35,688 nucleotides of DNA from Halanaerobiales bacterium. Its GTDB lineage: Bacteria > Bacillota > Halanaerobiia > B1SED10-174. Shown here piece after piece: positions 7,277-21,905 of this stretch; position 1 is the first letter of the stretch, and every line of letters starts with the position of its first letter. The position numbers and the translations under genes are program-made. The notes under the pieces were generated by a model. The model saw nothing but the letters and a program-made list of their open reading frames with translations. It did not search any database and was not told the DNA's origin. The stretch is from contig PUNT01000246.1 in assembly GCA_003551905.1 (NCBI GenBank), positions 1-35,688 of the forward strand, read 5' to 3'.

Positions 7277-8115
7277 TTTTTCACCCCTGCAAATTCCTTC
7301 AAAAAGTTGAGGTTTCTGGAGCCTTCTACTTTTGGATCTCCGGGGGTTTCCAGTATCATGGGGAGATTCCTCAGCAAAGGTTCTTCTAACATAGCCTTGA
7401 AACCACTTTGGCCAATATGTCCTTCACCCAGATGAGTATGACGATCTATACCCGATCCCAGCGGAGCTAAAGAATCATTCACATGAAGCAGCTTGAGCCT
7501 TTTGGTATCCATTTCATTGTCTATCTCTTTCAATGTTGTGGACCAACCATGAGAACTTCTTATATCATAACCACCTGCTAGAGCATGGCAGGTATCAAAA
7601 CACAGGCAAACATTTTCCTGGGGGAACATATTTATGGCCTGGGCTAGTTCATTAAAACTCCCTCCTAAAGATGTTCCAGAACCTGCAGTGTTTTCCAGGA
7701 GAAATACAATATCTGGGAATTTATTCATGAGGTAGTCAAGTGTTTTTTGCAGTCTCCATATGGACCTGGGGACTGTGGTGTTTTTATGGTTGCCAGGATG
7801 CATGACAAAAAATTCTGCACCCAGCAAAATTGCTCTCGAGACTTCTATTTCTAGCGCATGTAGAGACTTTTCATAAATATCTTTGTCAGGAGAGCAAGGA
7901 TTGATAAGGTAAGAAACATGAACTACCCAGGGATTAATACCTTTTTGGGGGCTCTGTTCTTTGGCAAAAATAGCGCCCTCTTTATCAAAAGTCCCCGCTT
8001 TCCAGCTGCGGGGATTTCTGACAAATACCTGTAAGGTAGTGCACTGCAATTCTTCAGCCAGTTGTAATGTTTTTTGGAAACCACCACTGATTGAAAGGTG
8101 GATACCTGTACGCAA
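7273..8115 (-). CDS. nfo: Endonuclease IV
   Basis: MRTGIHLSISGGFQ, FVMHPGNHK, LLENTAGSGTSLGG, CFDTCHALAGGYD, LLHVNDSLAPLGSGIDRHTHLGEGHIG, ILETPG. TTG start, 4-bp overlap with dinG. Confidence 0.95.
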   Translation of the reverse strand: MRTGIHLSISGGFQKTLQLAEELQCTTLQVFVRNPRSWKAGTFDKEGAIFAKEQSPQKGINPWVVHVSYLINPCSPDKDIYEKSLHALEIEVSRAILLGAEFFVMHPGNHKNTTVPRSIWRLQKTLDYLMNKFPDIVFLLENTAGSGTSLGGSFNELAQAINMFPQENVCLCFDTCHALAGGYDIRSSHGWSTTLKEIDNEMDTKRLKLLHVNDSLAPLGSGIDRHTHLGEGHIGQSGFKAMLEEPLLRNLPMILETPGDPKVEGSRNLNFLKEFAGVKK

Positions 8116-8130
8116 AGGCTTTTCCCCTTT

Positions 8131-10347
8131 CTACTTTCTAGGGTTGCGGCGATTACCCCTCTCCTGTCCACCACGTCCTCTTCTATCATGATCTTGATCT
8201 TTATTATCCTTGGAAGGCTTTGGGTTTCTCGTTTCTTCTTCCATAATTTCCTGTCCTCTCTCTTTTAGTACAGCTTCCCGGGAAAGGTTAACTCTGTCCC
8301 TGTCATCAATCTCTGTAACCTTAACCCATATTTGATCTCCTACACTGATTATATCTTCCACTTTTTTTACATGATGATCAGCAAGGCGAGAGATATGAAC
8401 AAGACCTTCTTTACCAGGAAGAACCTCTACAAAAGCTCCGAAGTTCATGAGCCGTTTAACTTTGCCTAAATAGATTTCCCCAACCTGAACTTCTCGGGTG
8501 AGTTCTTTGATTATCTCTACTGCTTTATTAGAATCTTCCTGATTATAGGCCAATATATATACTTTCCCTTCATCATCCACATCAATTTTTGTATTGGTTT
8601 CCTCGGTAATCTTTCTGATGGTTTTTCCTTGAGGACCTATTATATCACGGATCTGTTCGGGATTTATTTCCACAGTGACCATCTTGGGAGCAAATGGAGA
8701 GAGTTCCTCTCTAGGTTTGTCAATCACTTCATTCATTTTATCTAGAATAAAAAGTCGGTCTTTTTTCGCCTGTTGCAAGGCATCTTTTAAAATATCGATG
8801 GAAATCCCGCTTATTTTCATGTCCATCTGAAGAGCGGTGATACCTTTTTCTGTGCCAGCTACTTTGAAATCCATATCGCCATAGAAATCCTCAAGACCTT
8901 GAATATCGGTGAGAATAACATATTCATCTTCTTCTTTCATCAATCCCATAGCAATGCCTGCCACATGGCTTTTAATTGGAACGCCACCATCCATCAATGC
9001 CAGTGAACTGGCACATATGCTGGCCTGGGAAGTGGAACCATTTGATTCCAGTATCTCTGATACCAGCCTTATGGTATATGGAAATTCTTCGTGACTTGGG
9101 ATGACTTTTTCCAGGGCTTTCTCGCCCAGGGCTCCATGACCAATTTCTCGACGTCCAGGCGGCCGTAAGGGAAAAGTTTCACCTACAGAATACGGTGGGA
9201 AATTGTAGTGGTGCAAGAATCTCTTTGGCTCGCCTTCTCCTAGATCAAAAAGAATTTGTTCATCACCTACAGCTCCAAGAGTCAAAACAGTAAGAGCCTG
9301 AGTTTGCCCCCGAGTGAAAACTGCAGATCCATGAACTCGAGGCAAGAGGCCTACCTGACTCCAGATTTCCCTTATTTCATCAGGTTTACGACCATCTGGT
9401 CGCCTTTTTTCCTGGATAATAAGCTTCCGGACAATCCTTTTAAACATTTCCTCGTAGGTTTTCTTGATCATGTTTTCTACTTCTTCTTCTTCTCCTTCAA
9501 CTGCAAGCTCTGGGACCAGGACATCAATTATCTGTTCCTTTAGATTATCAATTGCTTCATTTCTATTGCTCTTTTCCTCGATGCGAATTGCTTTTTCCAG
9601 ATCTTCTTCATAGCTATTGACCCTTTCAAGAACCTGTTCATCCAGTTCAGCAGGATTAAATTCAATTTTTTCTACTCCGGCTTCTTGTACCATTTTCTCT
9701 TGAAATTCAACCTGTTTCTTAATAAATTTATGGCCAAATTCAATAGCTTTGATCATGGTGTCTTCATCAACTTCTTCTGCTCCTGCTTCCACCATGGTAA
9801 CTGCATCTTTTGTACCGGAGATAATGAGATCCATTTTACTTTTGTCTCTCTGTTCTTCGTCCGGATTAACAACAAATTCTCCCTCAACGAGCCCTATCTT
9901 TACTCCGCCTATAGGAGTTGTAAAGGGGATTTTGGAAAGCATTAGGGCAGCAGATGCTCCTACAAGTGCCAGAAGTTCTGGCTCATGATCCAGATCTACA
10001 CTCAGCACTGTAGCTATTACCTGTACATCATTAGTAAATCCTTTGGGAAATAATGGTCGTAAAGGCCGGTCTATCAATCTAGCAAAAAGGGTTGCAATAT
10101 CTCTAGGTCGTCCTTCTCGACGATTCCAACTGCCTGGAATTCTGCCTATGGCATAAACTCTTTCTTCATAATTTACCATCAAAGGCAAGAAATCGATTCC
10201 AGGACGAGGATCAGACATGGTAGCTGTAACCAGAACAACTGAATCTCCGCTTCTAACCATAATGGCTCCATCAGCCTGATTGGCAAAACGGCCTGTTTCC
10301 ATTGTTATTGTCTTATTGCCAATCTCTATCTCCCACAATTTTTCCAT
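8131..10347 (-). CDS. pnp: Polyribonucleotide nucleotidyltransferase (PNPase)
   Basis: Two RNase PH repeats, KH (IIGPQGKTIRKITEETNTKIDVDDEG) and S1 (GEIYLGKVKRLMNFGAFVEVLPGKEGLVHIS). Start taken as ATG at 10347; the track uses TTG at 10359. Confidence 0.97.
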   Translation of the reverse strand: MEKLWEIEIGNKTITMETGRFANQADGAIMVRSGDSVVLVTATMSDPRPGIDFLPLMVNYEERVYAIGRIPGSWNRREGRPRDIATLFARLIDRPLRPLFPKGFTNDVQVIATVLSVDLDHEPELLALVGASAALMLSKIPFTTPIGGVKIGLVEGEFVVNPDEEQRDKSKMDLIISGTKDAVTMVEAGAEEVDEDTMIKAIEFGHKFIKKQVEFQEKMVQEAGVEKIEFNPAELDEQVLERVNSYEEDLEKAIRIEEKSNRNEAIDNLKEQIIDVLVPELAVEGEEEEVENMIKKTYEEMFKRIVRKLIIQEKRRPDGRKPDEIREIWSQVGLLPRVHGSAVFTRGQTQALTVLTLGAVGDEQILFDLGEGEPKRFLHHYNFPPYSVGETFPLRPPGRREIGHGALGEKALEKVIPSHEEFPYTIRLVSEILESNGSTSQASICASSLALMDGGVPIKSHVAGIAMGLMKEEDEYVILTDIQGLEDFYGDMDFKVAGTEKGITALQMDMKISGISIDILKDALQQAKKDRLFILDKMNEVIDKPREELSPFAPKMVTVEINPEQIRDIIGPQGKTIRKITEETNTKIDVDDEGKVYILAYNQEDSNKAVEIIKELTREVQVGEIYLGKVKRLMNFGAFVEVLPGKEGLVHISRLADHHVKKVEDIISVGDQIWVKVTEIDDRDRVNLSREAVLKERGQEIMEEETRNPKPSKDNKDQDHDRRGRGGQERGNRRNPRK

Positions 10348-10380
10348 GTAAACTATCAACCTCCCTGTATCTAAAAATAA

Positions 10381-10398
10381 GAGCGGGTAGTCCCGCTC
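10381..10398 (-). terminator. rpsO-pnp intergenic hairpin (attenuator or leaky terminator)
   Basis: Minus strand GAGCGGG-ACTA-CCCGCTC followed by TTATTTTTAG, directly after the rpsO stop. Confidence 0.7.
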
Positions 10399-10404
10399 AT
10401 TTTT

Positions 10405-10671
10405 TTACCCCCTGATTCCCAGTTCGCTAATTAAACTACGATATTTCTCTGTATCCTTGTTTTTTAGGTATTTTAGGAGGCGCTTTCTTTTGCCAACAAT
10501 TTTTAAAAGGCCTCTGCGGGAATGATGATCTCTGGGGTGTTCTTTCAGATGATCTGTAAGCTGGGTTATCCGTTTAGTGAGAACTGCAATTTGTACTTCT
10601 GGTGAACCGGTATCAGCTTCATTCCTCTGAAAATCTTGAATGACTTTCTTCTTTTCTTCAGGACTGATCAA
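10405..10671 (-). CDS. rpsO: 30S ribosomal protein S15
   Basis: [56 protein letters not shown] start with SD AGGAGG 7 nt upstream. Confidence 0.97.
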
Positions 10672-10764
10672 TATTAAACCTCCTTAATTTGTTTTCTCCC
10701 CTAACCAAGAAGAAAGCTGGAGGGGCAATCTTCCTAGAAAGAGGCTTGCTTCAGACTACCAATA

Positions 10765-10793
10765 ATTCTATCATAAATATTTTTCAGTGTAAA
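10765..10793 (-). promoter_or_regulatory. Putative sigma-A promoter for rpsO: TTTACA-N17-TAGAAT, overlapping the 3' end of ribF
   Basis: Minus strand TTTACA (788-793), 17 nt, TAGAAT (765-770). Confidence 0.6.
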
Positions 10794-11725
10794 GATAAGT
10801 CATTTTGCAGTAATTCGCGAGTTTTATCCTTATCTTTAATAATTTGCTGGCAAAGGTTATTTTTATTTGGAAACTGTTTTTCCTGCCGGAGAAAGTGACA
10901 GAACCGGACTTCAATCGTTTTTCCATATAAATTTTCGTTAACATCTATAAGGTGAGCTTCCAGGATCAATTCTCCCTTGTTGAATGTAGGTCGTTGGCCA
11001 AAGTTCACAACTGCTGCATTGATATTACAATCAGTTTTCACCAGTGCAGCATAAACTCCTAGTCGAGGCAGAATATAAGCAGTTGTAAAGTGAACATTAG
11101 CTGTGGGAAAACCAAGATTCTTCCCTTGTCCAGTTCCTGACCTGATTACGCCTCTTATGGAAAAGTGTCTGCCTAAAAAAGAAGGCACTTTATCCACTTC
11201 TCCGTTTTTGACCAGGTTTCGGATCAGGGAACTGCTTATTTTTTCCCCATCAACTTTGAGAGGATCAAGAACAATAGTTGAGAACCCATAATGCTTTCCT
11301 GCTTCAGCAAGTTTGTAGGAGTTTCCTTGAGCATTTCTACCAAACTGAAAATTTTGGCCCACAACAATTCCATTCACCTTAAGCCCTTCTACCAGATATT
11401 TTTTAATAAAACTATTATAAGCTATATCAGCAAAAGTTGTATTGAAATTTTGAATGAGAAGAATATCGGGTCCCATTTCACCAATCAGTTTTTCCTTTTC
11501 CTCATAAGAAGTTATGAGATGAGGTGCCCTATCAGGTTTAAGAATTGAAAGGGGATGGGGCTGAAAGGTTAATACGCCGGCTTTAGCACCGGTTTTCTTT
11601 GCTTGTTCAACAGCGGTTTCCAGTACTTTTTTATGTCCAAGATGAACTCCATCGAATGTTCCCAGAGCAATAAAGATATTAGTTACAGGTATATCCTCTG
11701 GGGTTTCTAGGCGATAAATCTTCAT
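10784..11725 (-). CDS. ribF: Bifunctional riboflavin kinase / FAD synthetase
   Basis: ALGTFDGVHLGHKKV, TFQPHPLSIL, ISSSLIRNLVKNGEV, GTGQGKNLGFPTANV, NFGQRPTF. Confidence 0.95.
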   Translation of the reverse strand: MKIYRLETPEDIPVTNIFIALGTFDGVHLGHKKVLETAVEQAKKTGAKAGVLTFQPHPLSILKPDRAPHLITSYEEKEKLIGEMGPDILLIQNFNTTFADIAYNSFIKKYLVEGLKVNGIVVGQNFQFGRNAQGNSYKLAEAGKHYGFSTIVLDPLKVDGEKISSSLIRNLVKNGEVDKVPSFLGRHFSIRGVIRSGTGQGKNLGFPTANVHFTTAYILPRLGVYAALVKTDCNINAAVVNFGQRPTFNKGELILEAHLIDVNENLYGKTIEVRFCHFLRQEKQFPNKNNLCQQIIKDKDKTRELLQNDLSLH

Positions 11726-11747
11726 TCTATATATCTCACCCTATTCC

Positions 11748-12626
11748 TTATTGTATAAATACTTTGAAGGGATGAAATCTGCCCTCTTTAAAAGTGCATA
11801 AGGCCAGGAAATGCCCTTCAGTAGAATACAGACGGTATATAGCATTTTCCTGAGCAACAGTAGTAAGATCTGTTTCAGCTAAATTGATCATCAGGCCTGT
11901 TTTTACCTTCTTTACTGAATTCCTTATGAGAGAAATAGCTGGCAGATGTTCTAATGCTTGGTCTGCTGGCAGTATACAGGTCTTTATTTCACAACTTTTA
12001 ATTTCCTCCAGTGAATAAGTATCTTCAAGTTTAAAAGGGCCTGACCTTGTTCTTATGAGAAAATTTAAACAACCTCCTGTACCTAACAAATGACCTAAAT
12101 CCCTGGCAATGGAACGCATATAGGTTCCCCGGGAACAGTGAACCATAAAACGCACAATGTTTTTCTCTATATTTACTATATCCAGGGAAAATATTTCAAC
12201 CTGACGGGCTTTGATGGTAAATGGTTCATTTTTCCTGCTCAGTTTGTAAGCTGGTTTTCCAGATATTTTTACAGAAGAAAAGCGAGGTGGCACCTGTTCT
12301 ATTTTTCCTTTAAAAGATTCTAGAGCAAGAATTATTCTGTCTGTGGGAACCTCCACTCTTTTCTTTTCTAAAACCCTGCCACAGGTATCATCAGTATCAG
12401 TTCTTGTGCCTAGAATGACTTCACACCAGTATGTTTTTTTGTCCATCAGCAAAAAGGAAGCAACTTTTGTGGCTTTTCCCAGGCATAATGGTAGAACTCC
12501 GGCGGCCGCTGGGTCCAATGTGCCTGTGTGCCCAATTTTTTTTATGCCTGAAATCTTTTTTACAGCACCTATTATATTGTTAGAACTGATGCCCGGTGGC
12601 TTTAAAAGATTAAGAATTCCATTCAT
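11748..12626 (-). CDS. truB: tRNA pseudouridine(55) synthase
   Basis: MNGILNLLKPPGISSNN, IGHTGTLDPAAAGVLPLCLGKATK, VHCSRGTYMRSIARDLG. Confidence 0.96.
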   Translation of the reverse strand: MNGILNLLKPPGISSNNIIGAVKKISGIKKIGHTGTLDPAAAGVLPLCLGKATKVASFLLMDKKTYWCEVILGTRTDTDDTCGRVLEKKRVEVPTDRIILALESFKGKIEQVPPRFSSVKISGKPAYKLSRKNEPFTIKARQVEIFSLDIVNIEKNIVRFMVHCSRGTYMRSIARDLGHLLGTGGCLNFLIRTRSGPFKLEDTYSLEEIKSCEIKTCILPADQALEHLPAISLIRNSVKKVKTGLMINLAETDLTTVAQENAIYRLYSTEGHFLALCTFKEGRFHPFKVFIQ

Positions 12627-13581
12627 CTAACTCTTTCACCGCCTGGGGAATAATAGTTTTAACTGCCTTTTTCCAGGGGAATTCAATATTCATGCCCGCT
12701 GCTTGTTTATGTCCTCCTCCTCCCCAGCGGCCAGCAAAATCATTCACAGGAAATGAAGAATTACTGCGTAGGCTTACTTTTGTTGAATTGCTATTGTTTT
12801 CCACGAATAGTATGGCTACCTGAACACCTTTAACGTTTTTTAGTTCTTCTATAAGGCGCTGAGTTATTTCCTTTGTTCCCTGGCCGGTAAGAACAGTCCA
12901 GATAATTTTGCCTTCTGCAGCAAACCTAGCTTTTTCCAGTCCGGTTGAGTACCTGCTGAAATCCTCTTTTGTGAAGTTTGCAAACAGTCGCTTCTGTAAA
13001 ATATGGATATTAACTCCTCTTTTTGCCAGAAGTGCCAGTGTATAAAGGCTCTTTTCACTGGTATTTGGATTTCTTAGGTTGCCTGTATCGTATAATAGAC
13101 CACAGGCCAGGGCTTGACAGGATTTAGTTGGTAAAAATAGCTGCTCATGGATTAACAAGAAAACCATTTCACAAACAGAGGAAGCATCTGGATTCACAAA
13201 GTTAACATGCCCAAACTTCATGTTGTCGGGATGATGGTCGATATTCACCAGGATGTCCGCATTTTTGATAATCTTTTCAGCTTTGCCAGTTCTTTTAGTT
13301 GAAGTGCTATCACAGACAATTGCGTGGCTAAATTGATCTTGGGGAATGCTTGTTGAGGTAAGATCAATTATTGTTTTTTCTGAATCCATAAATTGCAGGC
13401 GCCGGGAGATCGGGCCATGAACAGCACTGATAACTTTTTTATTCATGCTCTTTAAGAGGTGATAAAGCCCCAGAATAGCACCAAGACTGTCACCATCAGG
13501 ATCTTCGTGGCCGGTTAGAAAGAAGCTTTCACCTTCTTTTATTATTCTTGTAAGAGAATTGGGTTCAAACATCCCCTTCAT
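12610..13581 (-). CDS. nrnA: DHH-family bifunctional oligoribonuclease / PAP phosphatase
   Basis: TGHEDPDGDSLGAILGLYHLL, VNIDHHPDN, LACGLLYDTGNLRNPNTS, RWGGGGHKQAAG. Overlaps truB by 17 bp and rbfA. Confidence 0.92.
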   Translation of the reverse strand: MKGMFEPNSLTRIIKEGESFFLTGHEDPDGDSLGAILGLYHLLKSMNKKVISAVHGPISRRLQFMDSEKTIIDLTSTSIPQDQFSHAIVCDSTSTKRTGKAEKIIKNADILVNIDHHPDNMKFGHVNFVNPDASSVCEMVFLLIHEQLFLPTKSCQALACGLLYDTGNLRNPNTSEKSLYTLALLAKRGVNIHILQKRLFANFTKEDFSRYSTGLEKARFAAEGKIIWTVLTGQGTKEITQRLIEELKNVKGVQVAILFVENNSNSTKVSLRSNSSFPVNDFAGRWGGGGHKQAAGMNIEFPWKKAVKTIIPQAVKELDEWNS

Positions 13582-13915
13582 CCTTAAGTTTTTTTAGAAG
13601 GTTAAAAATTCTATCGCCTTTCTCCATTGATGTATCGTAAGAGAAGCGAATTTCCGGTATATAGCGTAAGTTGATTCTCTTCCCCAGTTCTTTGCGAATA
13701 AAACCTGAAGCTTGTTCCAGGCCATCCATCAGTTCAGCAGGGCTGTTCTTTTCTTTAATAGTACTCACATAAATTTTTGCTACCCGCAAATCACCACTTA
13801 CCTCAACTGAAGTTATGGTAGCAAAATCAACTCGAGGATCCTTTAAATCTTTCTGGAACATATGGCTTAGCTCTTTTTTGATTACCTCAGCCAACCGTGT
13901 TGCCCTGTAATTCAT
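13565..13915 (-). CDS. rbfA: 30S ribosome-binding factor A
   Basis: MNYRATRLAEVIKKELSHMFQKDLKDPRVDFATITSVEVSGDLRVAKIYVS. Confidence 0.95.
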   Translation of the reverse strand: MNYRATRLAEVIKKELSHMFQKDLKDPRVDFATITSVEVSGDLRVAKIYVSTIKEKNSPAELMDGLEQASGFIRKELGKRINLRYIPEIRFSYDTSMEKGDRIFNLLKKLKDEGDV

Positions 13916-17611: not shown

Positions 17612-18076
17612 TCAAATTTCCACTTCCAGGTTGACTTTTTCTATTATATCTTTAGGGATGCTGATTGTGTCCCCATCTTCCAGTTCCACTCGTATCTTTC
17701 CTTCTATTAAGCCTAACAAGTTGCCTTTAAATGTCTTTCTCCCATCAAAAGCTACCCGAGTTTTTATAACTATTTTCTGACCGGCAAAGCGTTCAAAATC
17801 CTCTTCTTTTTTTAAAGGACGATCCAGGCCAGGAGAGGAAACTTCAAGAATGTATGAATGGTCTATTGGCGCTTCTATGTCCAGGATAGGGCTGAGAATA
17901 TTTGAAATTTTTTTGCATTCTGTGTGTGATATGCCCTGAGGATTATCTATGAAGACTCTGAGAACCCAAGCTCCTCCTTCTTTCTTATATTCAAGGTCCA
18001 CAAGTTCAAAACCTTCTCCTTCAATAACAGGCTCCACAATCTCCTGAATTTTATCAATACGTTCCACAAAAGTCAC
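17612..18076 (-). CDS. rimP: Ribosome maturation factor RimP
   Basis: GEGFELVDLEYKKEGGAWVLRVFIDNPQGISHTECKKIS, HSYILEVSSPGLDRPLKKEEDFERFAG. Confidence 0.95.
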   Translation of the reverse strand: MTFVERIDKIQEIVEPVIEGEGFELVDLEYKKEGGAWVLRVFIDNPQGISHTECKKISNILSPILDIEAPIDHSYILEVSSPGLDRPLKKEEDFERFAGQKIVIKTRVAFDGRKTFKGNLLGLIEGKIRVELEDGDTISIPKDIIEKVNLEVEI

Positions 18077-18111
18077 CTGCCTATTATCTATTATTTGATT
18101 TTATAATGTAA

Positions 18112-18134
18112 AGAGTGGGTTTGAGACCCACTCT
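18112..18134 (-). terminator. Leader hairpin upstream of rimP (candidate attenuator)
   Basis: Minus strand AGAGTGGGT-CTCAA-ACCCACTCT (9 bp) followed by a weak, interrupted U tract TTACATTAT. Confidence 0.65.
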
Positions 18135-18180
18135 AAGAAAACCTGTGCTCAAGTTAGTATGCACATTGAAACCTGATAAG

Positions 18181-18209
18181 AGTATATCATAAAGAATGTA
18201 ACATTTCAA
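18181..18209 (-). promoter_or_regulatory. Putative sigma-A promoter for the rimP-nusA operon: TTGAAA-N17-TATACT
   Basis: Minus strand TTGAAA (18204-18209), 17 nt, TATACT (18181-18186), between mgtC and the leader hairpin. Confidence 0.7.
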
Positions 18210-18224
18210 TGACAAATATGCTGC

Positions 18225-18884
18225 TCAAAGCCACTCTACTTCAAAAATTCCTTTCCTGCTTGATATTTGACTGCTAACCTGGTTGAGATCTGCAGTTTTC
18301 AGCATCCTTATCTTAATATTAATAATTATTTCAGGTTTGTGGGTTATTGGTTCAAGATTGATTCTTTCGATATTTAGCCCAGCCTCACCTAGAATGGAGC
18401 CTATCTGTCCCATAATACCAGGTTGATCTATAGCTCGAATGCGAATTTCTTTATATTTTCCTTTTGCTGTTGCCATAAATTCTATTTGAGACAATAACCA
18501 TAGGCTGGCAAATATGATAATAGAAGCAAAGAAAGCACCAAAATACAGCCCAGCACCAACAGCCAGCCCCACTCCGGCCACTGCCCAGAGACTGGCTGCA
18601 GTTGTTAGGCCTTTAACAGTGGCTCCTTCCCTGATAATGGTTCCTGCTCCTAAAAAACCAATTCCGCTTACTACCTGGGCAGCAATACGGCCAGGATCAG
18701 CAGCAACACCGTAGTAATCATGGATGTTCTGTGAGATTATCATAATCAGGGTTGCTCCCATGCATACCAGTATGTGGGTTCGGAATCCTGCTGGTCGCTC
18801 GTGGATTTCTCTTTCCCAGCCAATCAAGCCACCGAAAATCACTGCCAGGACAAGCTTTAATAAAATATTCAATTCGGGGATCAC
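18225..18884 (-). CDS. MgtC/SapB-family membrane protein with C-terminal ACT-like domain
   Basis: GGLIGWEREIHERPAGFRTHILVCMGATLIMIIS, GRIAAQVVSGIGFLGAGTIIREGATVKGLTTAASLWAVAGVGLAVG; C-terminus EIRIRAIDQPGIMGQIGSILGEAGLNIERINLEPI. GTG start at 18884, SD GGGGG, one nt after the proS stop. Confidence 0.92.
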   Translation of the reverse strand: MIPELNILLKLVLAVIFGGLIGWEREIHERPAGFRTHILVCMGATLIMIISQNIHDYYGVAADPGRIAAQVVSGIGFLGAGTIIREGATVKGLTTAASLWAVAGVGLAVGAGLYFGAFFASIIIFASLWLLSQIEFMATAKGKYKEIRIRAIDQPGIMGQIGSILGEAGLNIERINLEPITHKPEIIINIKIRMLKTADLNQVSSQISSRKGIFEVEWL

Positions 18885-18885
18885 T

Positions 18886-20577
18886 CTATTCCCCCTTTCT
18901 CTTCCTGAATTGGTTAACCCATTGCACAACCTGATGGATGTTGACAATTTCAGTTTTTCCTGAAGCCCTCTCCTTAATCTCTATTTTCCCCTCTTTGGCA
19001 AATTTCCCTACTGTAATACGTAGAGGAATACCTAAAAGGTCAGCATCATTAAATTTAACTCCTGGCCTTTCCTTCCTGTTGTCCCAAAGAGTCTCTACGT
19101 CAATATTCCATAATTCTTTGTATATATTCTCTGCAACATTATTTATTTCATCTGAAGCACCCAGGCTCAAAACGATGACTTGAAAAGGAGCAAGAGGCCA
19201 GGGCCAAACTATTCCCATATCATCATGGTTTTGTTCTATAGCTGCTGCAACAGTTCTACCTACCCCAATACCATAACAGCCCATTATAAAAGGTCTTTCC
19301 TTGCCATCAGCGTCAATAAAAAATGCTTTCATGGCCTGACTGTATTTAGTGCCCAGTTTAAATATATGCCCCACTTCGATTCCCCGGGCAGTTCTTAAAG
19401 GATTTGAACAGTGAGGGCAGCCATCTCCAGATTGGGTCAGTCGGATATCTGCAATTATCTGAGGCTTGAAATCCTGGCCAGGTATTACACCAGTAAGATG
19501 GTAATCCTTTTCATTAGCTCCGGTGATTCCCCAGTCCATCTTCATAACCAGGTTATCCGAAATAATTTTGAATCCTTTTTGATCTACTGGTCCTACAAAA
19601 CCCATGGGCCTTTCCAGGGAATCATCCACTACCATTTCTATTTCATTTTCTTGCAATGCATTTTTCAGCTTCACTTCATTTATTTGATCATTACCCCGGA
19701 GCAGAGCCATATATTCCCCTTTTTCTCCCCGGTAGATGAGTGTTTTTATTGTATGTTCTTCCGGTACAGATAGATATTCTGCTAGTTGAGCTATAGTTTT
19801 AATGTCAGGCGTGTATAACATTTCTTTTTTGGGTTTTACCGGCATCTCTTTTACCTTTACCCTGGCCGAAGCTTTTTCTATATTTGCAGCATATTCACAA
19901 TCACCGCAGTATAGCACCTGATCTTCACCAGTATCCGCTGTCACCATGAATTCATGGGAATCACTACCACCTATAGGTCCGGTATCTGCTTCCACTACCC
20001 GGTAATCCAGATCACAGCGGTTAAAGATATTGCAATAAGCATGGTACATTTTTTCATAACATTCATCCAGTGATTCTCTGCTGGCATGAAAACTATATGC
20101 ATCCTTCATGGTAAATTCCCGAGCCCGCATCACACCAAATCTTGGCCTGATTTCATCTCTCATCTTGGTTTGAATTTGGTAAAAGTTCAAGGGCAGATCC
20201 TTATAGGATTTTAGTTCGTGTCTGACTAAAAAGGTTATAATTTCTTCATGAGTTGGACCAAGGCAGAATTCTCTTTCCTTCCGGTCCTTCAATCTTACCA
20301 GTTCTGGTCCATATTCAGCCCAGCGTCCGGATTCTTTCCAGAGTTCTGCAGGATGCAGTACTGGCATGAGGAGCTCTTGAGCCCCGGCTTTATCAAGCTC
20401 TTCCCGAATTATTGTTTCAAGTTTTTTCATTACCCGGTAGCCGAGAGGTAGGTATGAATAGATTCCTGCCGCAACCTTGCGAATCATGCCTGCTCTCAGC
20501 ATCAATTGCTGGCTTATTACTTCTGCCTCAGCTGGTAATTCTCTCAGTGTGGGGCAGAAAAATTCTTTCATAAGCAT
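18886..20577 (-). CDS. proS: Prolyl-tRNA synthetase
   Basis: LRELPAEAEVISQQLMLRAGMIRKVAAGIYSYLPLGYRVMKKLE, GPTHEEIIT, RPRFGVMRAREFTMKDAYSFH, FIMGCYGIGVGRTVAAAIEQNHDD, YbaK-type insertion. ATG at 20577 follows SD GAGGAG. Confidence 0.97.
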   Translation of the reverse strand: MLMKEFFCPTLRELPAEAEVISQQLMLRAGMIRKVAAGIYSYLPLGYRVMKKLETIIREELDKAGAQELLMPVLHPAELWKESGRWAEYGPELVRLKDRKEREFCLGPTHEEIITFLVRHELKSYKDLPLNFYQIQTKMRDEIRPRFGVMRAREFTMKDAYSFHASRESLDECYEKMYHAYCNIFNRCDLDYRVVEADTGPIGGSDSHEFMVTADTGEDQVLYCGDCEYAANIEKASARVKVKEMPVKPKKEMLYTPDIKTIAQLAEYLSVPEEHTIKTLIYRGEKGEYMALLRGNDQINEVKLKNALQENEIEMVVDDSLERPMGFVGPVDQKGFKIISDNLVMKMDWGITGANEKDYHLTGVIPGQDFKPQIIADIRLTQSGDGCPHCSNPLRTARGIEVGHIFKLGTKYSQAMKAFFIDADGKERPFIMGCYGIGVGRTVAAAIEQNHDDMGIVWPWPLAPFQVIVLSLGASDEINNVAENIYKELWNIDVETLWDNRKERPGVKFNDADLLGIPLRITVGKFAKEGKIEIKERASGKTEIVNIHQVVQWVNQFRKRKGE

Positions 20578-20600
20578 TTTTATCACTCCTCATTGATAAT

Positions 20601-20812
20601 AAAAAACTTCTCATCCACAAGGGACGAGAAGTTCATTACAACCCGCGGTACCACCCTAATTTCCCGAAGGACACTCGAGCCTCTAAGGGGGCTAGCCTGA
20701 TGCTAAAAATTCCGGCGGGTTCAGAAGGTGCAGATGCAGATCTTCCAGCCTGGAATCCGCTCTCTGAGTTTCTGCAGGACTTCTTAATATTCCGAGAAAG
20801 CATCATTCATTT
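20601..20812 (-). ncRNA. T-box leader of proS-mgtC with terminator; probable proline specifier CCC
   Basis: Minus strand contains T-box core TTAGGGTGGTACCGCGGGTT (20640-20659), then terminator AACTTCTCGTCCCTTGTGGATGAGAAGTTTTTT (20601-20633). CCC at 20717-20719 after GAA in the stem I region. Confidence 0.93.
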
Positions 20813-20818
20813 TTTGTA

Positions 20819-20847
20819 ATTTTACCAATTTATTTACTTCCTGTCAA
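20819..20847 (-). promoter_or_regulatory. Sigma-A promoter for the T-box proS transcript: TTGACA-N17-TAAAAT
   Basis: Minus strand TTGACA (20842-20847), 17 nt, TAAAAT (20819-20824), overlapping the ispG 3' end. Confidence 0.8.
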
Positions 20848-21895
20848 GGATATATTCCTGGAGTGCCTTAAGGAGCGCTTGGGGCAGTTCTTTAGAGGAA
20901 TAGGTTCCAATGATTTCACCTTTTTTAAAGAGGGCACCCTTATTTTTGCCGCCAGCAATACCTAAGTGTGCTTCCCTGGCTTCACCAGGTCCGTTAACAA
21001 CACATCCCATTACTGCAATATTAACTGGTTCTTCTATATGGCAGGTTTTTCTATCAAGTTCTTCTACAATTTCTTTTACATCAATCTCACATCTTCCGCA
21101 GGTAGGACAGGAAAAGATATTGACTCCTCTAGTTCTTATCTCCAGGGCATTTAAAAGGTCCCAGGCCACCCGGACCTCCTCCACAGGGTTTTCTGTAAGA
21201 GAAATCCGGATAGTATCACCCAATCCTTCCAGCAAAAGTGGTGACAGACCTGATATTGAACGAACTATGCCCCGGCGAAAAGTACCAGCTTCAGTTATTC
21301 CCAGATGCAGTGGGTAAGAGTTTTCCCTGGCAATTATTCGGTTGGCCTCAATGGTCTCCAGAATATTTGTTGATTTTAAAGATAAAACTAGATCAGTAAA
21401 CCCATGGGTCTGAAATATTTCAATGTACTCCCGGGCAGTTTCTACCAGGGCCTGAGAATTTGGTCCTCCAGCTTTTTTTATTTTATCTTCTGGCAGGGAA
21501 CCGCTGTTGATGCCAATTCTTATGGGAACTTTGTTTTCTTTCGCCCGTTCAATTATAGCTTGAACGTGTTCACGTTTGCCAATATTGCCAGGGTTTATGC
21601 GCAAGCCGGCTACACCTGAATCCAGGGCACCCAAAGCCAATCGATAATCAAAATGAATATCAGCAACAACCGGCATGGGGGAATTTTTAATTATAGCAGG
21701 TAATGCACTTACAGCACCATTGTTGGGGACTGCGATGCGAACTACCTCGCAACCAACCTGACTTAGTTCCCTGATTTGCTTAAGAGTTGCTTCAACATCT
21801 TTTGTATCTGTATCGGTCATAGACTGAACCATAATAGGGGCATCTCCACCAACAGGTACATTACCATAAAATACTTTTTGGGTTTTCCTGCGCAA
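20834..21895 (-). CDS. ispG: 4-hydroxy-3-methylbut-2-enyl diphosphate synthase (flavodoxin/ferredoxin)
   Basis: RRKTQKVFYGNVPVGGDAPIMVQSMTDTDTKD, CPTCGRCEID, NIAVMGCVVNGPGEA. TTG start at 21895 with SD GAGGTG preferred over GTG at 21904. Confidence 0.96.
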   Translation of the reverse strand: MRRKTQKVFYGNVPVGGDAPIMVQSMTDTDTKDVEATLKQIRELSQVGCEVVRIAVPNNGAVSALPAIIKNSPMPVVADIHFDYRLALGALDSGVAGLRINPGNIGKREHVQAIIERAKENKVPIRIGINSGSLPEDKIKKAGGPNSQALVETAREYIEIFQTHGFTDLVLSLKSTNILETIEANRIIARENSYPLHLGITEAGTFRRGIVRSISGLSPLLLEGLGDTIRISLTENPVEEVRVAWDLLNALEIRTRGVNIFSCPTCGRCEIDVKEIVEELDRKTCHIEEPVNIAVMGCVVNGPGEAREAHLGIAGGKNKGALFKKGEIIGTYSSKELPQALLKALQEYILDRK

Positions 21896-21905
21896 AATAT
21901 TCACC

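Follow-up and report, generated by a model that had tools for sequence, protein, structure and literature searches.

We found a proline-type T-box leader in front of proS and an mgtC-family gene directly behind it, on the minus strand of a 35,688-nucleotide stretch of DNA from a Halanaerobiales bacterium (contig PUNT01000246.1), hereafter the window. As read from the sequence, the T-box very probably controls mgtC as well as proS. We give a probability of about three in four to the reading that this is a proline-responsive proS-mgtC operon in which mgtC is mostly an old neighbour within a gene cluster, rather than a demonstrated case of a proline-related MgtC function. Within the well-known class of T-box operons this is an unusual case. 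An initial annotation, made from the letters alone, had named the promoter, the T-box core, the terminator, proS, the GTG start just past the proS stop and the MgtC and ACT domains of the product, and we could confirm all of them on the minus strand (Table 1). The specifier codon is an addition to that annotation, which gave none.

Table 1. Features of the proS-mgtC region and its flanks in the window
Feature	Position	Strand	Basis
ispG (gcpE), upstream gene, 3' end overlapping the -35 region	20834..21904	(-)	Pfam profile
Promoter, sigma-70-like, TTGACA-N17-TAAAAT, TG before -10	20819..20847	(-)	11/12 consensus matches
T-box leader RF00230, proline type	20617..20809	(-)	covariance-model match, 58.8 bits, E 1.6e-12
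Specifier codon CCC (Pro) in Stem I specifier loop, context UGAA-CCC-G-CC	20717..20719	(-)	Rfam alignment and sequence
T-box core GGGTGGTACCGCGGG	20656-20642	(-)	sequence
T-box bulge UGGU, complementary to ACCA of tRNA-Pro(GGG)	20650..20653	(-)	sequence
Intrinsic terminator GAACTTCTCGTCCCTTGTGGATGAGAAGTTT + TTTATT, alternative to antiterminator	20604..20634	(-)	-17.5 kcal/mol fold
proS, prolyl-tRNA synthetase, bacterial type with editing domain	18886..20577	(-)	NF006625, 794 bits, cut-off 558
proS/mgtC junction: SD AAGGGGG, proS TAG, 1 nt, mgtC GTG, in GGGGA/UCCCC hairpin	18875..18898	(-)	sequence, fold
mgtC-family gene, GTG start, MgtC membrane domain and C-terminal ACT domain, 219 aa	18225..18884	(-)	Pfam/NCBIfam profiles, model
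Probable terminator 3' of mgtC, 9-bp hairpin AGAGTGGGT-CTCAA-ACCCACTCT then TTTACATT	18112..18134	(-)	sequence, fold
rimP, first gene of next unit; own promoter-like sites 18215-18083	17612..18076	(-)	Pfam profile, promoter scan

The leader matched RF00230 over the whole model (positions 1-219), with a score below the gathering score of 93. For this reason a default Rfam scan of the window, run at the gathering score, returned no T-box, and the leader appeared only under an E-value threshold. By score it ranked ninth among the 10 T-boxes of the whole genome. The T-box was retained at 56-65 bits in all four relatives from the window's family that have the locus. Counting the window's own genome, it precedes proS in 5/5 family members in which we saw the locus, and it scores below the Rfam gathering threshold in the family as such. 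Leaders of proS with the same arrangement elsewhere reached up to 94-119 bits. Moreover, the same four relatives carry the CCC specifier and the near-consensus TTGACA/TAAAAT arrangement before the T-box, the latter hence being found in five genomes in all. The host genome encodes a tRNA-Pro with anticodon GGG and acceptor end ACCA, and both the specifier and the bulge fit this tRNA. The terminator, with which the T-box core and the CCC arm are shared, and its alternative antiterminator lie upstream of the cognate synthetase gene. In its Stem I specifier, its T-box core GGGTGGTACCGCG, its terminator and antiterminator and its match to the host tRNA, the leader is like other transcriptional-type RF00230 T-boxes before aminoacyl-tRNA synthetase genes. 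It differs from them in its weak family score and in the second gene of the unit, which encodes an MgtC/ACT membrane protein instead of being an amino-acid gene.

proS, which probably starts at the ATG at 20577, ends in TAG-A-GTG, i.e., the mgtC start lies one nucleotide past the proS stop on the same strand. In the predicted fold, a small GGGGA/UCCCC hairpin holds the mgtC Shine-Dalgarno sequence (GGGGG) together with the proS stop codon. A ribosome terminating on proS would open this hairpin, suggesting translational coupling of the two genes. A scan of the minus strand from the T-box promoter to the mgtC end, the proS interior included, showed nothing promoter-like, and nothing resembling a terminator was seen at the junction. 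Gene ends overlap in the four family relatives, where proS runs into the mgtC start (as TTGA in 3/4) and mgtC apparently into the polC start; polC, a DNA polymerase gene, follows there in the same unit. Behind mgtC in the window, the probable terminator hairpin is followed by a weak T run. The sequence thus points to a probable co-transcription of proS and mgtC. The annotation's proposal of a proS-mgtC unit under a proline T-box was supported by the tight junction, the overlapping gene ends in the four relatives and a proS interior free of promoter-like sites.

The annotation had also asked whether mgtC directly downstream of a T-box-proS pair occurs beyond a single genome. We searched 60 related genomes and read their loci for gene order. 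Across the class Halanaerobiia we found the order rseP-ispG-proS-(GT2)-mgtC-polC-rimP-nusA, in which the bracketed gene behind proS encodes a family-2 glycosyltransferase (GT2). The same order was present in Thermosediminibacter, Thermincola, Thermosyntropha and Sporomusa, and it is widespread in Bacillota. The arrangement around the window is like the housekeeping cluster rseP-ispG-proS-polC-rimP-nusA of this phylum, from which it differs by mgtC (elsewhere also GT2) between proS and polC. In the window itself, GT2 and polC are missing between proS and rimP. The absence of polC at 18076-18225 could be due to PolC loss or to an assembly gap. The genome, which is 94% complete, yielded no full-length PolC; two ORFs of about 1100 aa (G000:C75, G000:C265) gave partial matches to PolC models and are presumably of the DnaE type. 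The best match to the cluster GT2 sits elsewhere in the genome (G000:C215:5839-6474), as it does in some family relatives.

For a phylum-wide view, 300 genomes were drawn evenly from Bacillota, and 100 loci around high-scoring ACT-MgtC genes were read. The gene was in the cluster in 51 loci and elsewhere in 47, and two loci were at contig ends. proS stood ahead of mgtC in 43 of the 51 in-cluster loci, and GT2 was present in 39. All eight clusters without proS have kept mgtC, always behind GT2. The layout is hence not peculiar to the window's genome, and the pair of T-box-proS and mgtC recurs in relatives and in other Bacillota; the refuting condition given in the annotation, a pair confined to this genome, did not apply. 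A T-box preceded proS in 10/43 loci with proS ahead of mgtC and was lacking in 33/43. These ten fall in families f94, f46 (Thermosediminibacteraceae), f118, f59, f83 and f112. Eight of them were scanned with Rfam and scored 119.3 (L260), 101.5 (L232), 98.4 (L240), 96.5 (L246), 93.6 (L268), 89.6 (L200), 76.2 (L205) and 33 bits (L265); two further Thermosediminibacteraceae records had T-boxes of 93.9 and 84.4 bits. Where readable, the specifiers of the sampled proS T-boxes were CCC, except for CCA in L268; that of L265 was unreadable.

The type of in-cluster ProS varied, and a T-box accompanied the archaeal type in 6/8 loci and the bacterial type in 4/35. A T-box drives an archaeal-type ProS (ProRS-C_1) in L079 (6361-9295) and L085, both Thermosediminibacteraceae, and in L205, L212 and L218. 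Between this gene and GT2-mgtC all five carry another ProS-like ORF, diverged and about 490-517 aa long, whose first 96 residues gave no match to any Pfam family.

Clusters with and without a T-box differ in the space between ispG and proS. This gap was at least 223 nt in all T-box-positive loci. The 50 T-box-negative ones had a median gap of 24 nt, and in 45 of them it was below 150 nt, so that a leader would mostly not fit. An Rfam scan of three of the five long-gap negative loci (L046, L057 and L064, excluding L059 and L075) gave no match. From the short gaps and these empty scans we mostly reject the explanation that T-boxes in negative clusters had been overlooked by the motif. The sole candidate for a T-box directly 5' of an mgtC without proS, L147 from Selenomonas, was a chance motif without an Rfam match. 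On an IspG tree, on which gain and loss of the T-box are indistinguishable, at least 3 changes of T-box state are needed, compared with at least 10 in 200 shuffles; we hence conclude that the T-box is inherited within lineages. As a control set we took 21 genomes with mgtC elsewhere. Here, none of 17 in-cluster proS genes without mgtC had a T-box, and a T-box-like core was found on 2/4 proS genes outside the cluster, i.e., the T-box goes with proS and not with mgtC alone.

The window protein is the sole PF02308 match in its genome. Its MgtC domain scored 145 bits against a cut-off of 31.4 (E 1.6e-42), and its ACT domain exceeded the Pfam cut-offs of 27 with 36 (PF13291) and 33 bits (PF01842). 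In an AlphaFold model (32 sequences, mean pLDDT 90) the N-terminal part is helical, and the C-terminal part follows the order beta-alpha-beta-beta-alpha-beta. With the latter, Foldseek matched the ACT domains of IlvN, Rel and SerA and the C-terminal domains of MgtC from M. tuberculosis and P. aeruginosa. The C-terminal ACT fold is hence real. The two MgtC structures (2LQJ and 7QA5, TM-score on target 0.72 and 0.67, respectively) share with the window protein an N-terminal MgtC membrane domain and a C-terminal ACT fold; the ACT domain of the window protein, in contrast, is recognisable from sequence, and its IlvN and Rel matches have better E-values. The annotation had noted that ACT domains often bind amino acids and had listed proline among the ligands to be tried. 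We saw nothing that points to proline as the ligand. Invariant residues are almost confined to the membrane part, and conservation is lowest in the ACT part, which lends no support to a conserved proline pocket. Compared with the enterobacterial MgtC equivalog (NF011912, PRK15385) the protein scored 104.3 bits, far below the cut-off of 255.

We propose the following course of events. Transcription would start at the promoter inside the ispG end. Uncharged tRNA-Pro(GGG) would bind the leader at two places, the anticodon pairing with the CCC specifier and the ACCA acceptor end with the bulge UGGU; in the tRNA-bound leader the antiterminator would form, and polymerase would continue through proS and then mgtC without meeting a stop or a new promoter. 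With charged tRNA-Pro, the terminator would form instead. mgtC would be translated by ribosomes finishing proS, and MgtC would very probably be raised together with ProS at proline shortage. The direct task of the T-box would be feedback control of proS. mgtC, an old resident of the rseP-to-nusA cluster, would simply have come to lie under the T-box in some lineages, and its proline control may be incidental. The sequences directly show the parts, their fit to the tRNA, the close packing and its recurrence; that the two genes share a transcript and are coupled in translation, and how large an MgtC response would be and what it would serve, we infer. Transcription running on from the ispG operon might also contribute to proS-mgtC mRNA.

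Alternatively, the link may have been selected, i.e., the T-box would have been retained ahead of proS-mgtC for the benefit that MgtC brings to cells short of proline or of charged tRNA-Pro, as in osmotic or magnesium stress. This would make it the Gram-positive counterpart of the Salmonella mgtP attenuator, where low levels of proline-charged tRNA-Pro raise mgtC via the mgtP ORF (PMC3641672). Both systems would put an MgtC-family gene under the influence of tRNA-Pro charging. The Salmonella mgtCBR leader with its proline-codon ORF is, however, a ribosome-stalling attenuator on a dedicated mgtC leader (PMC3641672), whereas the window has a tRNA-binding leader and mgtC as the second gene after proS; moreover, Salmonella MgtC is of the enterobacterial type, encoded with mgtB, and belongs to a different family branch. 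We found no paper that joins T-box and mgtC in the sense of a T-box-controlled mgtC. A selected link would agree with the tightly packed, colinear T-box-proS-mgtC order recurring in several families, with the mgtP precedent and with the fold matches to amino-acid-binding ACT domains such as those of IlvN and SerA. It would also agree with T-boxes in 10/43 clusters with mgtC versus 0/17 without (Fisher p 0.049, kinship uncorrected), which runs opposite to a pure passenger reading; we reject this enrichment as evidence, since a tree with possibly no more than 3 changes makes the loci non-independent by kinship and the p value unusable. Against a selected link stand the T-box-free majority of mgtC clusters, the inclusion of polC or GT2 in the unit in other genomes, the persistence of mgtC after proS has departed, the poor conservation of the ACT part, the score below the enterobacterial cut-off and the lack of any pointer to proline as ACT ligand. 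We therefore regard a selected link, together with its role as mgtP counterpart, as unlikely. It is equally doubtful that a tRNA-sensing RNA in several Bacillota lineages functionally took up the enterobacterial input-output link from proline to MgtC. The suggestion in the annotation that two RNA mechanisms converged on proline-controlled MgtC is hence not supported as it was worded: most clusters have no T-box, mgtC outlasts proS, the relatives' unit extends to polC and the protein falls short of the enterobacterial MgtC family.

Should MgtC indeed rise with uncharged tRNA-Pro, the same signal would be wired to the same protein family by RNA devices of two unrelated kinds in distant phyla. 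This would speak for a general tie of proline supply to the ion or envelope physiology served by MgtC, and the role of ACT-MgtC would become testable in harmless anaerobes. Even as a passenger, mgtC would represent a widespread, little-studied lineage inside a Bacillota core gene cluster, probably expressed with that cluster.

Very improbable is a marginal role of the T-box on proS, with mgtC expressed mainly by read-through from rseP-ispG or from an unrecognised promoter: ispG does end inside the promoter region, same-strand genes are dense and most relatives have a leaderless proS directly in the ispG operon, but transcripts from ispG would themselves meet the T-box terminator, the near-consensus promoter before the leader is conserved in five genomes and a promoter-like site inside proS was not found.

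Two further observations were made in the searched genomes. One Halanaerobiia genome carries two ACT-MgtC genes about 5 kb apart outside the proS cluster (L063 of G012, 7596-13672). Moreover, adjacent T-box pairs within about 600 bases, probably tandem T-boxes, were found at G019:C4:36485-36986, G007:C14:39147-39680 and G006:C31:7437-8005.
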